Below, piece after piece: positions 50,118 through 56,766 of a stretch of DNA of 64,000 nucleotides. The stretch covers positions 434,001 through 498,000 of the forward strand of contig NZ_CP133548.1 in the NCBI RefSeq assembly GCF_031198435.1. Direction: 5' to 3'. A program made the translations under genes and the position numbers. The stretch's first letter is position 1. Each line of letters opens with the position of its first letter. Origin of the DNA: Pleionea litopenaei (lineage in GTDB: Bacteria; Pseudomonadota; Gammaproteobacteria; Enterobacterales; Kangiellaceae). Under the pieces are notes generated by a model. It worked only from the letters and a program-made list of their open reading frames with translations, had not been told where the DNA came from and ran no database searches.

Positions 50118-50921
50118 ATGCTTATTGACTCTCATTGCCACTTAGATCGAGTGGACTTATCTGATTTTAATGGAAACTTAGAGAACGCACTCAACTACGC
50201 TGAGCAGTGTGGTGTGAAAGGGTTTCTATGCATTGCAACGGATCGTGACAACGTAGCCGCAGTTCGTAAAATTGCACAGCAAGACGCAAGAGTGCATTGT
50301 TCTGTGGGTTTACATCCGCTGTCGAAAGAGTTAGATACAACCGACTTATTCAATTATTTACTGACACAAAGTAATGCAGATGAAGTCGTCGCTATTGGCG
50401 AAACAGGACTCGATGGCTTCTACGCTAAAGAAACGATCCCGGCGCAATTGGAGTCTTTTCTAGTTCATTTTGAAGCCGCTAAACAGCAGCAATTGCCTTT
50501 GGTGATTCATACTCGTGAGGCACGTCAACAAACTTTAGATTTAATCTTATCGGACCCTCGTGAAAATGCCGGTGTATTGCATTGTTTTACGGAGGACTGG
50601 GAGATGGCAAAGCTTGCTATAGATGCCGGTTATTTTGTGTCTATTTCTGGAATCGTGACGTTTAAGCAAGCAGAAAATGTGCGAGAGATGGCACGGAAAA
50701 TTCCTCTGGATCGATTATTAGTGGAAACCGACTCTCCATACTTATCGCCGGTACCTTATCGGGGTAAGCCGTGCCAGCCTGCCTACACTAGAAATACTGC
50801 AGAATTTTTAGCCGAACTTCGGGGCGAGTCTTTCGAGCTGCTAGCAGAACAAACGACGAAAAACTATTTTCAACTCTTTGCCAAGGCCAAGCGGCATGAA
50901 GCGACTCGCACTGCAATGTGA
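50118..50921 (+). CDS. TatD-family metal-dependent hydrolase (YcfH type)
   Basis: The 267-residue TIM-barrel hydrolase has the metal ligands HxH in DSHCHLDRVD, Glu in IGETGLDGFYA, His in VIHTREARQQ, His in LHCFTEDWEM, and Asp in VETDSPYLSP. Family members are 3'-5' exonucleases/deoxyribonucleases. The substrate in vivo is uncertain. It is ten bases after pilZ, as in Pseudomonas and E. coli (holB-pilZ/ycfH). Its 3' end overlaps the tyrR-like gene by 26 bases. Confidence 0.92.
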   Translation: MLIDSHCHLDRVDLSDFNGNLENALNYAEQCGVKGFLCIATDRDNVAAVRKIAQQDARVHCSVGLHPLSKELDTTDLFNYLLTQSNADEVVAIGETGLDGFYAKETIPAQLESFLVHFEAAKQQQLPLVIHTREARQQTLDLILSDPRENAGVLHCFTEDWEMAKLAIDAGYFVSISGIVTFKQAENVREMARKIPLDRLLVETDSPYLSPVPYRGKPCQPAYTRNTAEFLAELRGESFELLAEQTTKNYFQLFAKAKRHEATRTAM

Positions 50922-52422
50922 AGATCGTCTTGGTGTTGTACAAGATGTGGTCTCTTTAATTACTGAGCAGAAAATAGACTTACGTGGTATTGAGTTAACT
51001 GATAAACAATTGTTTCTGCGTCTAAAAGTTTCCGAAAGCATCGCTAAGCAACTGTCAGCCGATCTTTTAACAATCGCTGGTATTCATAAGGTTCATGACG
51101 TTTCGTTAATGCCGTCAGAGCGTGAACATCAAGAGCTGAAGCGTTTGATGGATCATTTTCCTGAAGCGGTCGCATCGATTGATCGTCAAGGGCTTTTGGT
51201 AAGTGCAAACCAAGGGTTTTACCAGCAAATAGAACAGCTGGGAGTGACATCACAAGCCATCGATCAATTGATCGATCAGCAGCATTTGAACGAGTTATTT
51301 CGACAGCTCGATGCCCATAGAAGCGCTGAGTTGACCTTAACCAAGCAGCAACGCACCTTGTACATTGAAGCCATCGCGACTGCCACTGGTGATAACGGGC
51401 GAGTAGAGCATGCGTTAGTAATCTTACGTGTTCCCTCTGAAATGGTCTCGAAACTAGAACATTGGAATCGAGATCGATCAATCCCATTTGCGCATTTAGT
51501 TGCGAGTTCTCAGGTCATGAAACAGCTGTGTAAAGAAGCTCAGCGCTTTGCGACTTTAAACGAACCATTGCTGATTGAAGGCGAAACGGGCACCGGTAAA
51601 GAGGTGTTTGCGCGGGCAACACATATCGCTCGTTCTCCTGATAAACCCTTTTTAGCACTTAACTGCGCGTCGCTTCCGGATAGTGCAGCCGAAAACGAGT
51701 TGTTTGGCTTTATCGACTCTACCAATAAATCTGCGAAACCGGGTTTAATAGAACTTGCAGAAGGGGGAACGCTGTACTTCGATGAAATTGGTGAGATGTC
51801 TCCTTATCTGCAAGTTAAGTTACTTCGTTTTTTAGAAACGGGTCGCTTTAGAAAAGTGGGTAGTGAACGAGAAGTCGCCATTCAAGTAAAGGTGATTGCA
51901 TCGACCCAAAGAAATCTAAAAGCCTTGTGCAAGCAGGGCAGTTTTCGAGAAGATCTTTACTATCGATTAAATGTTCTAAATTTGGTTCTACCACCATTGC
52001 GCTCTCGCAGAGACGATATCATCCCACTGGCCAATCACTTTCTCGAGTTAGGGTGCAAACGTCTCGATCGATCATTAGTTACCATGAGCAAGCGAGCACA
52101 ATTGGTTTTAGCCCGCTATAACTGGCCTGGGAACATACGAGAGCTAGAGAATATTATTTTTCGTGGTTTGTCGAAAGTAAGCGGAACGCAACTATCGACT
52201 CGACATCTCAATATGCCGATGCTGCGCTCACTGGATATAGAGTTGATCGCTGGCGACGATGATTTGTCCCACAAGGAGATCATGAAAAACTTTGAGCGAC
52301 AGTTACTGGAGTATCTGTACCCTCTGTATCCGAGCAGTCGTCGACTGGCAGAAAAACTTCACCTCTCACATACCTCAATTGCTAATAAACTTCGCGAGTT
52401 TGGGTTAGAGCAATCCAATTAA
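50896..52422 (+). CDS. tyrR: TyrR/PhhR-family aromatic amino-acid regulator
   Basis: This regulator of aromatic amino-acid metabolism has about 508 residues from ATG 50896. It comprises an ACT domain starting LALQCEDRLGVVQDVVSLIT (about 1-75), a PAS domain (about 80-190), an AAA+ domain with Walker A GETGTGKE and YFDEIGEMSPYL, and a C-terminal helix-turn-helix (SSRRLAEKLHLSHTSIANKL). The GAFTGA loop that contacts sigma-54 is missing (ELFGFIDSTNKSAKPG in its place), as in TyrR, which acts on sigma-70 promoters. It sits directly upstream of two TyrR boxes and the hpd operon. An in-frame TTG at 50878 is unlikely. Confidence 0.92.
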   Translation: MKRLALQCEDRLGVVQDVVSLITEQKIDLRGIELTDKQLFLRLKVSESIAKQLSADLLTIAGIHKVHDVSLMPSEREHQELKRLMDHFPEAVASIDRQGLLVSANQGFYQQIEQLGVTSQAIDQLIDQQHLNELFRQLDAHRSAELTLTKQQRTLYIEAIATATGDNGRVEHALVILRVPSEMVSKLEHWNRDRSIPFAHLVASSQVMKQLCKEAQRFATLNEPLLIEGETGTGKEVFARATHIARSPDKPFLALNCASLPDSAAENELFGFIDSTNKSAKPGLIELAEGGTLYFDEIGEMSPYLQVKLLRFLETGRFRKVGSEREVAIQVKVIASTQRNLKALCKQGSFREDLYYRLNVLNLVLPPLRSRRDDIIPLANHFLELGCKRLDRSLVTMSKRAQLVLARYNWPGNIRELENIIFRGLSKVSGTQLSTRHLNMPMLRSLDIELIAGDDDLSHKEIMKNFERQLLEYLYPLYPSSRRLAEKLHLSHTSIANKLREFGLEQSN

Positions 52423-52440: not shown

Positions 52441-52458
52441 TGTAAAAAAATATTTACA
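52441..52458 (+). promoter_or_regulatory. TyrR box 1
   Basis: TGTAAA (52441-52446), six bases, TTTACA (52453-52458): a perfect match to the established TyrR/PhhR operator TGTAAA-N6-TTTACA. It lies 18 bp past the tyrR stop codon and about 168 bp upstream of the predicted hpd transcription start. Confidence 0.85.
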
Positions 52459-52513
52459 CTTAATTCAACGCCAAGTTATTCAAAAATAAGCAGTATTTTG
52501 AATTCTACTTACC

Positions 52514-52531
52514 TGTAAATAAATCTTTACA
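52514..52531 (+). promoter_or_regulatory. TyrR box 2
   Basis: TGTAAA (52514-52519), six bases, TTTACA (52526-52531): a second perfect TyrR operator. It is 73 bp from the first, close to seven helical turns, so both sites face the same side of the DNA. It is centred about 95 bp upstream of the predicted hpd transcription start. Confidence 0.85.
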
Positions 52532-52605
52532 AAAATCAAGTCGGGTAGCCTGGCTAATCTATTAAGTACTTTTAATTCAATGATTTAAAAAAACTTTTTA
52601 TTCCG

Positions 52606-52611
52606 TATAAT
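52606..52611 (+). promoter_or_regulatory. -10 element of the hpd operon promoter
   Basis: TATAAT at 52606-52611 is a consensus -10, 55 bp before the hpd ATG. The -35 region (about 52583-52588, ATTTAA) is poor, which fits a promoter that depends on an activator such as the TyrR-like protein bound upstream. Confidence 0.6.
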
Positions 52612-52666: not shown

Positions 52667-53746
52667 ATGGACAATCATCAAGAAATTAACCCATTAGGTA
52701 CTGACGGTTTTGAGTTTGTTGAATATTCGGCTCCCGATGCAGAAGGAATCGAAAAACTACAAAATCTTTTTTCACTGCTTGGATTCACGCCCATTGCGAA
52801 GCATAAGCGCAAAGACGTAACTTTATATCGTCAAGGTGATGTTAATTTTCTGATCAATGCAGATCAAGGCACTTACTTTCATGAGTTTTCTAAAGCTCAT
52901 GGGCCATGCGCATGCGCGATGGCTTTTCGGGTCGGCGATGCTCAAGCTGCGTTTGAATACGCAGTAAAGCAAGGCGCAACGCCCTTCGATAAAGCGGATA
53001 TAGCCGACGGTGAGTTATCAGTGCCAGCAGTTTACGGTATCGGCGACTCGGTCTTGTACTTTGTCGACCAGTATGGCGATAACACGATTTATGACCATGA
53101 TTTTGAATACTTCGAAGGCGTCGATAAGCATCCTACTGGTGTTGGTCTCTACGAACTTGATCATTTAACCCATAACGTAATGCGCGGCAATATGGATAAA
53201 TGGGCTGGATTTTACGAAAATATTGGGAATTTCCGAGAAATTCGTTACTTCGATATTGAGGGCAAGTTAACGGGACTAGTGTCTCGCGCCATGACGGCTC
53301 CCTGTGGAAAAATTCGCATTCCAATTAATGAGTCATCAGACGATAAATCGCAAATTGAAGAGTATCTCAGAGAGTATCAAGGTGAAGGCATTCAACACAT
53401 TGCATTAACCACTGATAATATCTATCAAACAGTGCGTTCTTTACGTGAAATGGGCATGGACTTTATGCCAACGCCAGACACCTATTATGAAAAGATCAAT
53501 GGGCGCGTACCTGGACATGAAGAAAACGTTCAAGAACTTGCTGATTTGCGAATTCTCATTGATGGTGCTCCGGTAGAGGGTGATGGTATTCTATTGCAAA
53601 TCTTCACTCAGACAGTGATTGGCCCAATCTTCTTTGAGATTATTCAGCGAAAAGGCAACCAAGGTTTTGGTGAAGGAAACTTTAAAGCGTTATTCGAATC
53701 AATCGAAGAAGACCAAATCCGTCGTGGCGTTATCAGCGCGGATTAA
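52667..53746 (+). CDS. hpd: 4-hydroxyphenylpyruvate dioxygenase
   Basis: HPD converts 4-hydroxyphenylpyruvate to homogentisate. The 359-residue vicinal-oxygen-chelate enzyme shows its three Fe(II) ligands: His in ELDHLTHNVMRG, His in EGIQHIALTTDNI and Glu in FFEIIQRKGNQGFGEGN. GAGG at 52653-52656 serves the ATG. It is first in an operon with hmgA and fahA, downstream of two TyrR boxes. Confidence 0.97.
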   Translation: MDNHQEINPLGTDGFEFVEYSAPDAEGIEKLQNLFSLLGFTPIAKHKRKDVTLYRQGDVNFLINADQGTYFHEFSKAHGPCACAMAFRVGDAQAAFEYAVKQGATPFDKADIADGELSVPAVYGIGDSVLYFVDQYGDNTIYDHDFEYFEGVDKHPTGVGLYELDHLTHNVMRGNMDKWAGFYENIGNFREIRYFDIEGKLTGLVSRAMTAPCGKIRIPINESSDDKSQIEEYLREYQGEGIQHIALTTDNIYQTVRSLREMGMDFMPTPDTYYEKINGRVPGHEENVQELADLRILIDGAPVEGDGILLQIFTQTVIGPIFFEIIQRKGNQGFGEGNFKALFESIEEDQIRRGVISAD

Positions 53747-53773: not shown

Positions 53774-54904
53774 ATGCGTAAGTGGATATCATTTCCTCAC
53801 AAAGAAGGTAAAGTTTCGCGTCAAGCGCATGCAGACTTTCCTGAAGAGGGCATTTATGAGCGAGAAGCCGGTAGAAGTGGTTTTTTTGGGCCTGCCGCTC
53901 ATTTTCATCACCAACGTCCACCCACGAGTTGGGATTCATGGGAAGGGCCATTGCGTCCACGAGCTTTTAATTTAAATGATTTAGAAACCAACGTTCATTC
54001 ACCTTTTGCGTCACCCATTGTGCTGCACAATGCGTCGTGTAAGTTTCGCTTTTGGCGGTGTGAACGTAACATGGACTTTTTGGTTCGCAATGCAGACGGT
54101 GACGACCTTTTATTCATTCACTCTGGCGCTGGCGAGTTGTTCTGTGATTACGGTCATTTAACACTGCGAGACGGTGATTATGTTGTCATTCCCCGCAGCA
54201 CTATGTGGCGACTTGAACCAACAGAACCTATGTCTATTTTGATCATTGAAGCAACGAATGATTCTTACCAATTGCCAGAAAAGGGTTTGGTTGGGCCGCA
54301 TGCGATTTTCGATCCGGCGATGCTCGATATCCCGCAAATAGACGACGCATTTAAAGCCCAACAAACCGATAGCAAGTGGACGGTTGAAATTAAGCGACGA
54401 GATGAAATTTCGAAGGTTCATTTTTCTTACAGTCCTCTTGATGCGATTGGATGGCACGGTGATTTATCGGTGGTGCGAATTAACTGGCGTGATATTCGTC
54501 CGTTAATGTCTCATCGTTATCACTTACCTCCTTCAGCGCACACAACATTTGTCGCAAGCCGCTTTGTTGTTTGCACTTTTGTACCGCGTCCGATTGAATC
54601 GGATCCAGGGGCGTTGAAAGTGCCTTTTTACCACAATAACGACGACTTCGATGAAGTCATTTTCTATCATGCCGGCAATTTCTTTAGCCGCGACAACATC
54701 GATGCTGGAATGGTCACTTTCCATCCCTGCGGCTTTACTCATGGTCCTCATCCTAAAGCATTTGCGGCAGGTCAAGAGTACGCTAAAAAAGAAACGGATG
54801 AAGTTGCTGTTATGTTGGATACTCGTGATCCATTAGAAATTGGTGCGCCTGCGTATACCGTAGAAGACGACGCATATTCTGAAAGTTGGAAGGTTAAAAA
54901 GTAA
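53774..54904 (+). CDS. hmgA: Homogentisate 1,2-dioxygenase (short form)
   Basis: HmgA opens the homogentisate ring to maleylacetoacetate. The 376-residue protein resembles the family in FGPAAHFHHQRPPTSWDSWEGPLRPRAF-like text near the N-terminus (about residues 35-62), RNMDFLVRNADGDDLLFIHSGAG, and the C-terminal metal site around NNNDDFDEVIFYHAGNFFSR and FTHGPHPKAF. It is about 55-70 residues shorter than the classical enzymes of roughly 430-445 residues, a known bacterial variant. AAAGGAG at 53760-53766 precedes the ATG. It lies 27 bp after hpd. Confidence 0.92.
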   Translation: MRKWISFPHKEGKVSRQAHADFPEEGIYEREAGRSGFFGPAAHFHHQRPPTSWDSWEGPLRPRAFNLNDLETNVHSPFASPIVLHNASCKFRFWRCERNMDFLVRNADGDDLLFIHSGAGELFCDYGHLTLRDGDYVVIPRSTMWRLEPTEPMSILIIEATNDSYQLPEKGLVGPHAIFDPAMLDIPQIDDAFKAQQTDSKWTVEIKRRDEISKVHFSYSPLDAIGWHGDLSVVRINWRDIRPLMSHRYHLPPSAHTTFVASRFVVCTFVPRPIESDPGALKVPFYHNNDDFDEVIFYHAGNFFSRDNIDAGMVTFHPCGFTHGPHPKAFAAGQEYAKKETDEVAVMLDTRDPLEIGAPAYTVEDDAYSESWKVKK

Positions 54905-54914
54905 GGTTAACTCA

Positions 54915-55901
54915 ATGAAATTAGCAAGTTTAAAAAACAATACTCGTGACGGTGAATTAGTCGTTGTTAGTCGCGATTTAAAAAAAGCCGTGAAAATTCC
55001 TGATGTAGCGCGAACGATGCAACAGCTATTGGATGACTGGAAAAGTTTGGCATCTAAAGCTCAAGTTGTTTATGAGCAACTGAATGAAGGTCAATGTGAT
55101 ACTGCATTTGACTTTGACGAAAGTGCTTGTGAATCACCGCTTCCTAGAGCTTATCAGTGGGCCGATGGAAGCGCCTATGTGAACCATGTTGAGTTAGTTC
55201 GAAAAGCTCGTGGCGCAGAAATGCCAGAAACGTTTTGGACTGACCCACTCATGTATCAGGGTGGCAGTGATGCTTTTTTAGGGCCGCGCGAAAATATTGA
55301 AATGGCTTCTGAAGAATATGGCATCGACATGGAGTCGGAAGTCGCGGTTATTGTTGATGATCTGCCTATGGCAGCGACAAAAGATGAAGCACGTGACGCG
55401 ATTCGATTATTTATGCTGGTTAATGATGTTTCATTAAGAAACCTGATTCCGGGTGAGTTGGCAAAAGGTTTTGGCTTTTTTCAAAGCAAACCATCGAGTG
55501 CCTTTTCTCCAGTCGCGGTTACTGCAGATGAGTTAGGTTCAGCGTGGGATGGAGACAAGGTCCATTTGCCTTTGGTTACTCATTTAAATGATGAGTTGTT
55601 TGGTCGACCAAACTGTGGCGTTGACATGACGTTTGACTTTCCTACCATCGTTGCTCATGCTGCCAAAACTCGTCCACTGGGTGCCGGCGCAATCATCGGC
55701 TCAGGAACCATTTCAAACTACGATCGTTCAGCCGGGTCCAGTTGTTTAGCTGAGAAGCGGATGCTTGAAATTGTGGCTGATGGCAAACCAACTACGCCAT
55801 TTATGAAGTTTGGTGATCAAGTAAGAATTGAAATGTTCGACGAAGCTGGTCATTCAATCTTTGGCGCCATAGACCAGAAAGTTACTGAATATAAAAAGTA
55901 A
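54915..55901 (+). CDS. fahA: Fumarylacetoacetate hydrolase family protein
   Basis: This enzyme hydrolyses fumarylacetoacetate to fumarate and acetoacetate, the last step of tyrosine breakdown. The 328-residue FAH-fold protein has the metal-binding acid cluster in YGIDMESEVAVIVDD, VNDVSLRNLIPGELAKGFGF, and GAGAIIGSGTISNYDRS. It starts ten bases after hmgA, and a terminator follows nine bases past its stop. It belongs to the prokaryotic FahA type, not the catechol-pathway hydrolases, judging by operon context. Confidence 0.93.
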   Translation: MKLASLKNNTRDGELVVVSRDLKKAVKIPDVARTMQQLLDDWKSLASKAQVVYEQLNEGQCDTAFDFDESACESPLPRAYQWADGSAYVNHVELVRKARGAEMPETFWTDPLMYQGGSDAFLGPRENIEMASEEYGIDMESEVAVIVDDLPMAATKDEARDAIRLFMLVNDVSLRNLIPGELAKGFGFFQSKPSSAFSPVAVTADELGSAWDGDKVHLPLVTHLNDELFGRPNCGVDMTFDFPTIVAHAAKTRPLGAGAIIGSGTISNYDRSAGSSCLAEKRMLEIVADGKPTTPFMKFGDQVRIEMFDEAGHSIFGAIDQKVTEYKK

Positions 55902-55909
55902 GAACCATT

Positions 55910-55936
55910 AGGCCCACATTCAGCGTGGGCCTTTTT
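55910..55936 (+). terminator. Terminator of the hpd-hmgA-fahA operon
   Basis: AGGCCCAC (55910-55917) pairs with GTGGGCCT (55925-55932) around a 7-base loop and runs into a T tract. It separates maiA from the rest of the pathway genes. Confidence 0.9.
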
Positions 55937-56115: not shown

Positions 56116-56766
56116 ATGTATAAATTATTTGGATATTGGCGGTCGACTGCAGCGTACCGAGTGCGAATTGCGCTTAACCTGAAACAAGTTTCCTACGAGA
56201 ATGTTTCGGTACACTTAGTAAAAGACGGTGGTGAGCAGCACCAACCAGATTATCGCTCGCTCAACCCTCAAGGATTGGTTCCTTTACTGGTCGATGGTGA
56301 CTTTCGTTTGAACCAGTCGACGGCGATATTAGAGTATTTAGACGAAAAATACTCAAACCCTCTATTGTTACCCGAAAGCCTTGAAGAAAAAGCCAAGGTA
56401 CGTGCGTTTTGCCAAGAAATTGCCTGCGATATTCACCCTTTGAACAATTTACGTGTTTTGCAATATTTATCCGGTCCATTAGCGGTTGATGACAAGGCCA
56501 AGTCAGACTGGTACGCGCACTGGATTCATCAAGGTTTTACCGCATTAGAAAGTGAGTTGAAGCAAAGTAGTTCCGATGGGCGTTATTGCTTTGGCTCCAA
56601 AATATCGATGGCCGATTTGTATCTTGTTCCTCAAGTTTACAATGCAATGCGTTTTAATGTTGATCTTTCTAGCTTCCCAACGATTTGTGCCATTAATGAT
56701 CATTGCTTAACTCATCAAGCATTCAGTGACGCGGCACCAGAAAGCCAACCTGACGCAGTGCTTTAA
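56116..56766 (+). CDS. maiA: Maleylacetoacetate isomerase (zeta-class GST)
   Basis: MaiA isomerises maleylacetoacetate to fumarylacetoacetate using glutathione. From ATG 56116 the protein has about 216 residues and starts MYKLFGYWRSTAAYRVRIAL, with RSTAAYRV in place of the usual SSCxxRV motif but keeping the key Ser. NPQGLVPLLVDGD, LNQSTAILEYLDE and the C-terminal helical domain (ISMADLYLVPQVYNAMRF) are typical. AGGTGAGG just upstream favours 56116 over the ATG at 56101. It has its own promoter and is outside the hpd operon terminator. Confidence 0.93.
   Translation: MYKLFGYWRSTAAYRVRIALNLKQVSYENVSVHLVKDGGEQHQPDYRSLNPQGLVPLLVDGDFRLNQSTAILEYLDEKYSNPLLLPESLEEKAKVRAFCQEIACDIHPLNNLRVLQYLSGPLAVDDKAKSDWYAHWIHQGFTALESELKQSSSDGRYCFGSKISMADLYLVPQVYNAMRFNVDLSSFPTICAINDHCLTHQAFSDAAPESQPDAVL

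Follow-up and report, generated by a model that had tools for sequence, protein, structure and literature searches.

In Pleionea litopenaei, a tyrR-like gene stands directly upstream of hpd, the gene for 4-hydroxyphenylpyruvate dioxygenase, and two palindromes of the TyrR box type lie between them, both at some distance from the hpd promoter. This raises the question of how a TyrR-type protein could act on hpd from two such remote sites. That TyrR/PhhR proteins control hpd has been published for Pseudomonas, and the same has been predicted in other gammaproteobacteria. What is less usual here is that the paired boxes are remote and locked in their spacing, that few other perfect sites exist, and that tyrR itself shows no box. 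Our literature search found no paper covering both Pleionea and TyrR. We analyzed a stretch of 64,000 nucleotides around the locus (the window, whose coordinates are used below) together with the rest of the genome and the genomes of related bacteria.

RESULTS

Two perfect TyrR boxes upstream of the hpd operon

The boxes are located in the 244-bp gap between tyrR (50896-52422, forward strand) and hpd (52667-53746, forward strand). Box 1, the distal one (52441-52458), and box 2, the proximal one (52514-52531), neither of them assigned to a strand, each match TGTAAA-N6-TTTACA at 12/12 positions and lie 73 bp apart, just as a previous, sequence-only reading of this DNA had described them. A TyrR box has been called strong when 10 or more of 12 positions match the consensus, the invariant G and C among them (PMC4374768), and both boxes satisfy this definition in full (12/12). 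Up to two mismatches, the remainder of the window contains four two-mismatch sites and nothing else. The spacing corresponds to 6.95 helical turns at 10.5 bp per turn. With the predicted transcription start set 7 bp after the -10 hexamer, the box centers were computed at -168.5 and -95.5, in agreement with the earlier values of about -168 and -95.

The promoter had been described as a consensus TATAAT with a poor -35 element. The -10 hexamer TATAAT (52606-52611, forward strand), which is the same in all six related promoters compared, indeed follows the -35 hexamer TTTAAA (52584-52589, forward strand) after a 16-bp spacer, and a TTTA-type hexamer occupies this place, 16 bp from TATAAT, in 6/6 promoters. 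Judged by these elements, the hpd promoter is of the sigma-70 type. Neither box overlaps it, and 64 bp separate box 2 from the center of the -35 hexamer.

The product of hpd matches TIGR01263 with 423 bits (cutoff, 277). It is followed on the same strand by an hmgA-like gene of the homogentisate 1,2-dioxygenase family (53774-54904; PF20510, 58.1 bits, cutoff 20.2; TIGR01015, 79 bits, below the cutoff of 510.75) and by a fumarylacetoacetate hydrolase-family (fah-like) gene (54915-55901; PF01557 with 122 bits and PF18288 with 100, each above its cutoff). A GC-rich hairpin and then a T run, read by eye, lie 3' of the fah-like gene at 55911-55936. This hairpin is probably the end of the hpd operon, and maiA, encoding maleylacetoacetate isomerase (56116-56766, forward strand; TIGR01262, 285 bits, cutoff 171), probably forms a separate unit, as it comes after the hairpin and T run. 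A terminator scan found none between tyrR and hpd, so read-through from tyrR into hpd is possible.

The regulator and its own transcription

The gene at 50896-52422 encodes a protein of 508 amino acids whose assignment to the TyrR/PhhR family, made previously from the letters alone, is borne out by profile and structure matches. Its C-terminal region matches the TyrR/PhhR helix-turn-helix profile TIGR04381 with 73.7 bits (cutoff of 30 reached) and the TyrR-homolog helix-turn-helix 1g2h (E 2.7e-10), and residues 3-111 form an ACT-type N-terminal domain matching the E. coli TyrR N-domain 2jhe (E 4.8e-15). The best full-length family match is NF008085, the curated TyrR equivalog; as its cutoff of 576 bits is not reached (442.5 bits), the protein is a member of the family rather than an exact equivalent of E. 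coli TyrR. Alignment to NtrC1 revealed that the GAFTGA loop, through which sigma-54 activators make their contact, is replaced and shortened. TyrR is expected to be without this loop. A regulator of this kind is unlikely to activate with sigma-54, and a sigma-54 promoter was rejected on the missing loop together with the absence of GG-N10-GC from the window promoter. Strings of the form GG-N10-GC occur in 3/6 related promoters at no shared position.

The start of tyrR lies within the 3' end of a tatD-like gene, and tyrR is therefore probably cotranscribed with the preceding genes. Scanning of 25220-52440, which covers 25 kb upstream of tyrR, detected no TyrR box with up to two mismatches, so no feedback is visible in the window, and tyrR autoregulation was rejected on this result. 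The earlier proposal of a complete tyrosine-responsive circuit thus stands for the family of the regulator and for the co-occurrence of box and regulator (see below), but not for feedback.

TyrR can also repress, and repression is called its primary mechanism in E. coli (PMC4374768). This raises the possibility that a TyrR oligomer bridging -168 and -95 shuts the hpd promoter and is released or remodeled as amino acid levels change; two strong sites at a fixed spacing would suit such a repression loop as well. However, no box overlaps the promoter, the -35 hexamer is weak, as in activated promoters, and PhhR activates breakdown genes in Pseudomonas (PMC5343134). We consider repression of hpd unlikely and favor its activation by TyrR bound to both boxes.

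Spacing is kept in the family while sequence is not

Among 41 genomes searched, full-length TyrR was found in six of the family, G000 to G004 from one genus and G009 from another. In all six, tyrR immediately precedes hpd and the pair of boxes is present. The nearest named genome is that of Pleionea mediterranea (hpd 86% identical), whose promoter is the same as that of G002, so that the two were treated as one. Box 1 shows no mismatch in 6/6 promoters. Box 2 is perfect in four, has one mismatch in G001 and three in G003, where the 3-mismatch site was chosen by position and a 2-mismatch site (minus one outer base pair) lies nearer to box 1, a choice that favors constant spacing.

In the order G000, G004, G002, G001, G003 and G009, the boxes are 73, 72, 76, 74, 73 and 74 bp apart (SD, 1.4), and the center of box 2 is 83.5, 83.5, 85.5, 84.5, 83.5 and 82.5 bp from the -10 hexamer (SD, 1.0). 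The distance from the -10 hexamer to the ATG is 61, 72, 107, 95, 53 and 131 bp (SD, 29.9). The sequence between the boxes has diverged almost to background, with identities of 0.41 to 0.64 over the 15 promoter pairs versus 0.41 to 0.49 for shuffled sequence. Distances are kept and letters are not, and this is the best sequence evidence that the spacing matters. The helical register is approximate, as the 76 bp of G002 amount to 7.24 turns. A kept spacing with unkept sequence in between is what cooperative or looped binding would need.

Boxes at hpd occur with TyrR

When 350 bp upstream of hpd were scanned in 30 genomes, the genome studied here included, a box with up to two mismatches was found in 7/10 genomes with full-length TyrR and in 0/20 without. 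Within the family the box was present in 6/6 genomes with TyrR and in 0/16 without, the latter showing none even at three mismatches. In three genomes outside the family (G025, G038 and G039), TyrR is encoded but hpd lacks a box. Conversely, G027 lacks TyrR and yet has a site with three mismatches at hpd. G029, also outside the family, carries a partial TyrR-like frame (residues 2-327) and was counted as being without TyrR. These counts are not independent, as the genomes are related and two genera provide most of the support.

Many genomes of the family (G005 to G008, G010, G012 to G018 and G020 to G024) harbor hpd with no full-length TyrR found, some of these genomes being incomplete. This suggests that the regulator has been lost or gained within the family.

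A second operon with a perfect box

A whole-genome scan for TGTAAA-N6-TTTACA, proposed earlier as a way to define the regulon, identified five perfect boxes in the 4.42-Mb genome versus one for the pattern read backwards. Two are upstream of hpd, one is upstream of a second hpd operon, hpd2-VOC-phhA, and two are within coding sequences (L003 and L005, by eye a membrane metalloprotease-like and an NRPS-like protein); the 3/5 that are noncoding are thus all at operons for tyrosine/phenylalanine breakdown. Looser cutoffs gave 32 sites versus 21 for the reversed pattern with up to one mismatch and 310 versus 328 with up to two, so that essentially only the perfect sites stand out. The five genomes of the genus together contain 15 perfect boxes, and the reversed pattern occurs 4 times in them. 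Of the 15 boxes, 8 are at hpd, 2 at hpd2-phhA, 4 in coding sequence and 1 intergenic, the last beside a second palindrome with one mismatch and between genes that are unrelated by eye.

We inspected the surroundings of all 27 one-mismatch sites, 15 in reading frames and 12 outside, and recognized no aromatic amino acid gene near them by eye (at L140, with a family search). At L140:1467-1518, two one-mismatch palindromes 34 bp apart lie upstream of a gene for a 201-aa protein (no Pfam match) and an HTH_3 gene, and G004 has a pair resembling them (L163). These palindromes are more likely to be sites of the adjoining HTH_3 protein than of TyrR.

The perfect box of the second operon is at genome position 2,050,508, upstream of hpd2 (TIGR01263, 386 bits), which is followed by a VOC-family gene and by phhA for phenylalanine 4-monooxygenase (TIGR01267, 332 bits). 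The operon spans L146:6896-9526, or about 2,047.9-2,050.5 kb of contig C1 of the genome. Its box is absent in G001 and weak in G003; counted from hpd2, a box is present in 4/6 genomes with TyrR and in 0/14 without, a count that shares 13 of the 14 TyrR-less and 2 of the 6 TyrR-bearing genomes with the hpd count. Ten base pairs from the box, at L146:9485-9498, lies a perfect TTGAT-N4-ATCAA, which we take to be an FNR-type palindrome and which is present in 4/4 genomes of the genus that have hpd2. The usual working position of FNR-type sites is -41.5. If the palindrome works there, the hpd2 TyrR box would be at about -67, an ordinary activator position. An FNR-type palindrome is odd at hpd2-phhA, given that the enzymes use oxygen.

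Boxes and box pairs in other bacteria

From 80 hpd loci we compared 78 promoters, having dropped L071 (about 120 bp of upstream sequence only) and L088 (P. mediterranea, grouped with its relatives). A TyrR-type box (up to two mismatches, invariant G and C) is present in 49/78, and none of 59 permutations of the half-site reached more than 7. This suggests that TyrR-type control of hpd is common in gammaproteobacteria, in agreement with the regulon predictions in PMC5343134.

One further explanation is that a different regulator binds the palindromes, or that they arose by chance. Perfect matches do occur within coding sequences (L003 and L005), and a similar conserved double palindrome stands beside the HTH_3 gene (L140 and L163). 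However, box occurrence follows tyrR, none of the 59 permutations does as well as the half-site in hpd promoters, and the control pattern occurs once in 4.42 Mb, which makes this explanation very improbable. A chance origin was rejected on the genome and genus counts against the reversed pattern and on the half-site permutations.

Two near-perfect boxes 69-99 bp apart were found at 33 places in 29 of the 394 genomes of the order, versus 1 place for the reversed pattern. The adjoining gene was identified at 9 of the 33: four are hpd, one tyrP, one tyrR, two DAHP synthase and one trpX (tryptophan ABC transporter), the trpX and tyrR matches being below the curated cutoff. L177 resembles the trpX locus by eye. 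Paired near-perfect boxes are carried by 23 small genomes of one family (f27; L171 to L193), where those checked are at a trpX-like transporter or a DAHP synthase gene.

The pair spacings in other hpd loci lean to whole helical turns. With up to two mismatches, the Rayleigh test gave P 0.056 for 27 pairs and 0.066 for 18 genus/spacing values, neither significant; with up to three, the nominal values were 6e-6 (62 pairs) and 3e-4 (41 values), kinship being ignored. A period of 10.5 bp was the top-scoring of eight tried. The reversed-box control yielded 0 and 3 pairs, too few for comparison, and the phasing score of 0.408 compares with 0.383 in the one permuted control with at least eight values. 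We take helical phasing outside the family as no more than a hint.

The constancy of both distances would also suit activation from two independent sites with no loop, the spacing being kept only since either site needs a particular distance to face polymerase. The distance from box 2 to the -10 hexamer is as constant as that from box to box (SD, 1.0 and 1.4 bp), hpd2 has a single box, and box 2 is almost lost in G003. A protein at -168, however, could hardly contact polymerase unless the DNA were bent; box 1 is conserved better than box 2 (perfect in 6/6), and boxes paired at 69-99 bp are found at other aromatic amino acid genes as well. We regard independent action as improbable and joint occupation of the two boxes as the better account.

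An IHF-like element on the -35 hexamer

An element with one mismatch to WATCARNNNNTTR, which we take to be the IHF consensus, lies at 52575-52587 on the forward strand and overlaps the -35 hexamer. A match to WATCARNNNNTTR with up to one mismatch is present between box 2 and the -10 hexamer in 6/6 promoters, which none of 1,000 permuted motifs equaled; it is at -43 to -31, on the -35 hexamer, in 4/6 promoters and at -56 to -44 of the opposite strand in two. Simple shuffles gave 0/500 for this interval. With the -35 hexamer excluded, 34.6% of permuted motifs did as well (0.346), and the excess was gone. Between box 1 and box 2, simple shuffles gave P 0.034 and permuted motifs 0.08. The element may be an IHF site or simply an extended -35 region, and from its place on the -35 hexamer it could compete with polymerase at least as plausibly as it could assist by bending the DNA.

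DISCUSSION

We propose, with a probability of roughly 70%, that a TyrR/PhhR-type protein, encoded next door and supplied with plentiful phenylalanine or tyrosine, binds and occupies both boxes and activates hpd-hmgA-fah at its sigma-70 promoter with the weak -35 hexamer, so that tyrosine breakdown would be switched on. Box 1, at about -168 and the more strictly conserved, would be the anchor of a TyrR oligomer. The same oligomer would grip box 2, seven turns closer to the promoter at about -95, and reach polymerase from that site. A single box would serve hpd2-VOC-phhA. We infer binding, ligand, activation, polymerase contact and looping alike. Activation by an oligomer on both boxes is favored because the sigma-70 promoter is not overlapped, because of the position of box 2 and the better-kept distal box, and because of the published behavior of the TyrR hexamer, of weak boxes and of folA: with tyrosine and ATP, TyrR forms a hexamer able to join several sites, weak boxes need a strong one nearby, and E. 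coli folA is activated by hexameric TyrR with the help of IHF (PMC4374768).

Comparison with known systems shows both likenesses and differences. PhhR of Pseudomonas aeruginosa controls phhABC, hpd and dhcA (PMC5343134). In both cases a TyrR-family regulator, here by prediction, stands over hpd and phenylalanine hydroxylase genes for phenylalanine/tyrosine breakdown, whereas here tyrR and hpd are direct neighbors on one strand, tyrR first, and phhA is in a distant operon with a second hpd. Regulon predictions for TyrR in gammaproteobacteria list hpd, hmgABC and phhAB with the most conserved members and commonly include tyrR itself, and for Shewanella TyrR has been described as a master regulator of amino acid catabolism (PMC5343134, PMC3223726). 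These regulons average 13.4 target genes per genome, by arithmetic from Table 1 of PMC5343134. In contrast, noncoding perfect boxes here mark two operons, neither of them that of tyrR, in a count restricted to perfect boxes.

TyrR also activates mtr and folA of E. coli and ipdC of Enterobacter, which are like hpd in having a sigma-70-type promoter with strong boxes upstream, activation at hpd being our prediction (PMC4374768). In mtr the boxes are adjacent (8 bp apart) and the strong box is 42 bp above the -35 element (PMC4374768), whereas here both are perfect, 73 bp apart, and the nearer one is 64 bp above the -35 center; the comparison of 64 with 42 bp is good to a few bases, as the mtr account does not give its reference base in the -35 element. 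The sequence-only reading had called the boxes farther upstream than typical. This is fair, yet box 2 is only about two turns past the activating box of mtr, and folA offers a published precedent.

More speculatively, and with considerable doubt on our part, TyrR of this genus may have shrunk from the regulator of a broad regulon to a dedicated, non-autoregulated local tyrosine/phenylalanine switch. It would work as a two-site sigma-70 enhancer in which an oligomer of TyrR, with its anchor at the perfect distal box, grips another site seven turns away, with the conserved IHF-like element on the -35 hexamer as a second input, for example by competing with polymerase until the loop forms.

The locus provides a clean test of distance and helical register for TyrR-type activators working with sigma-70, in that six diverged promoters keep their distances and lose their sequence, and relatives without TyrR are natural controls. 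For the biology of this marine family, the Kangiellaceae, our reading would extend TyrR/PhhR control of hpd to its members and would add hpd2-VOC-phhA as a second target operon.
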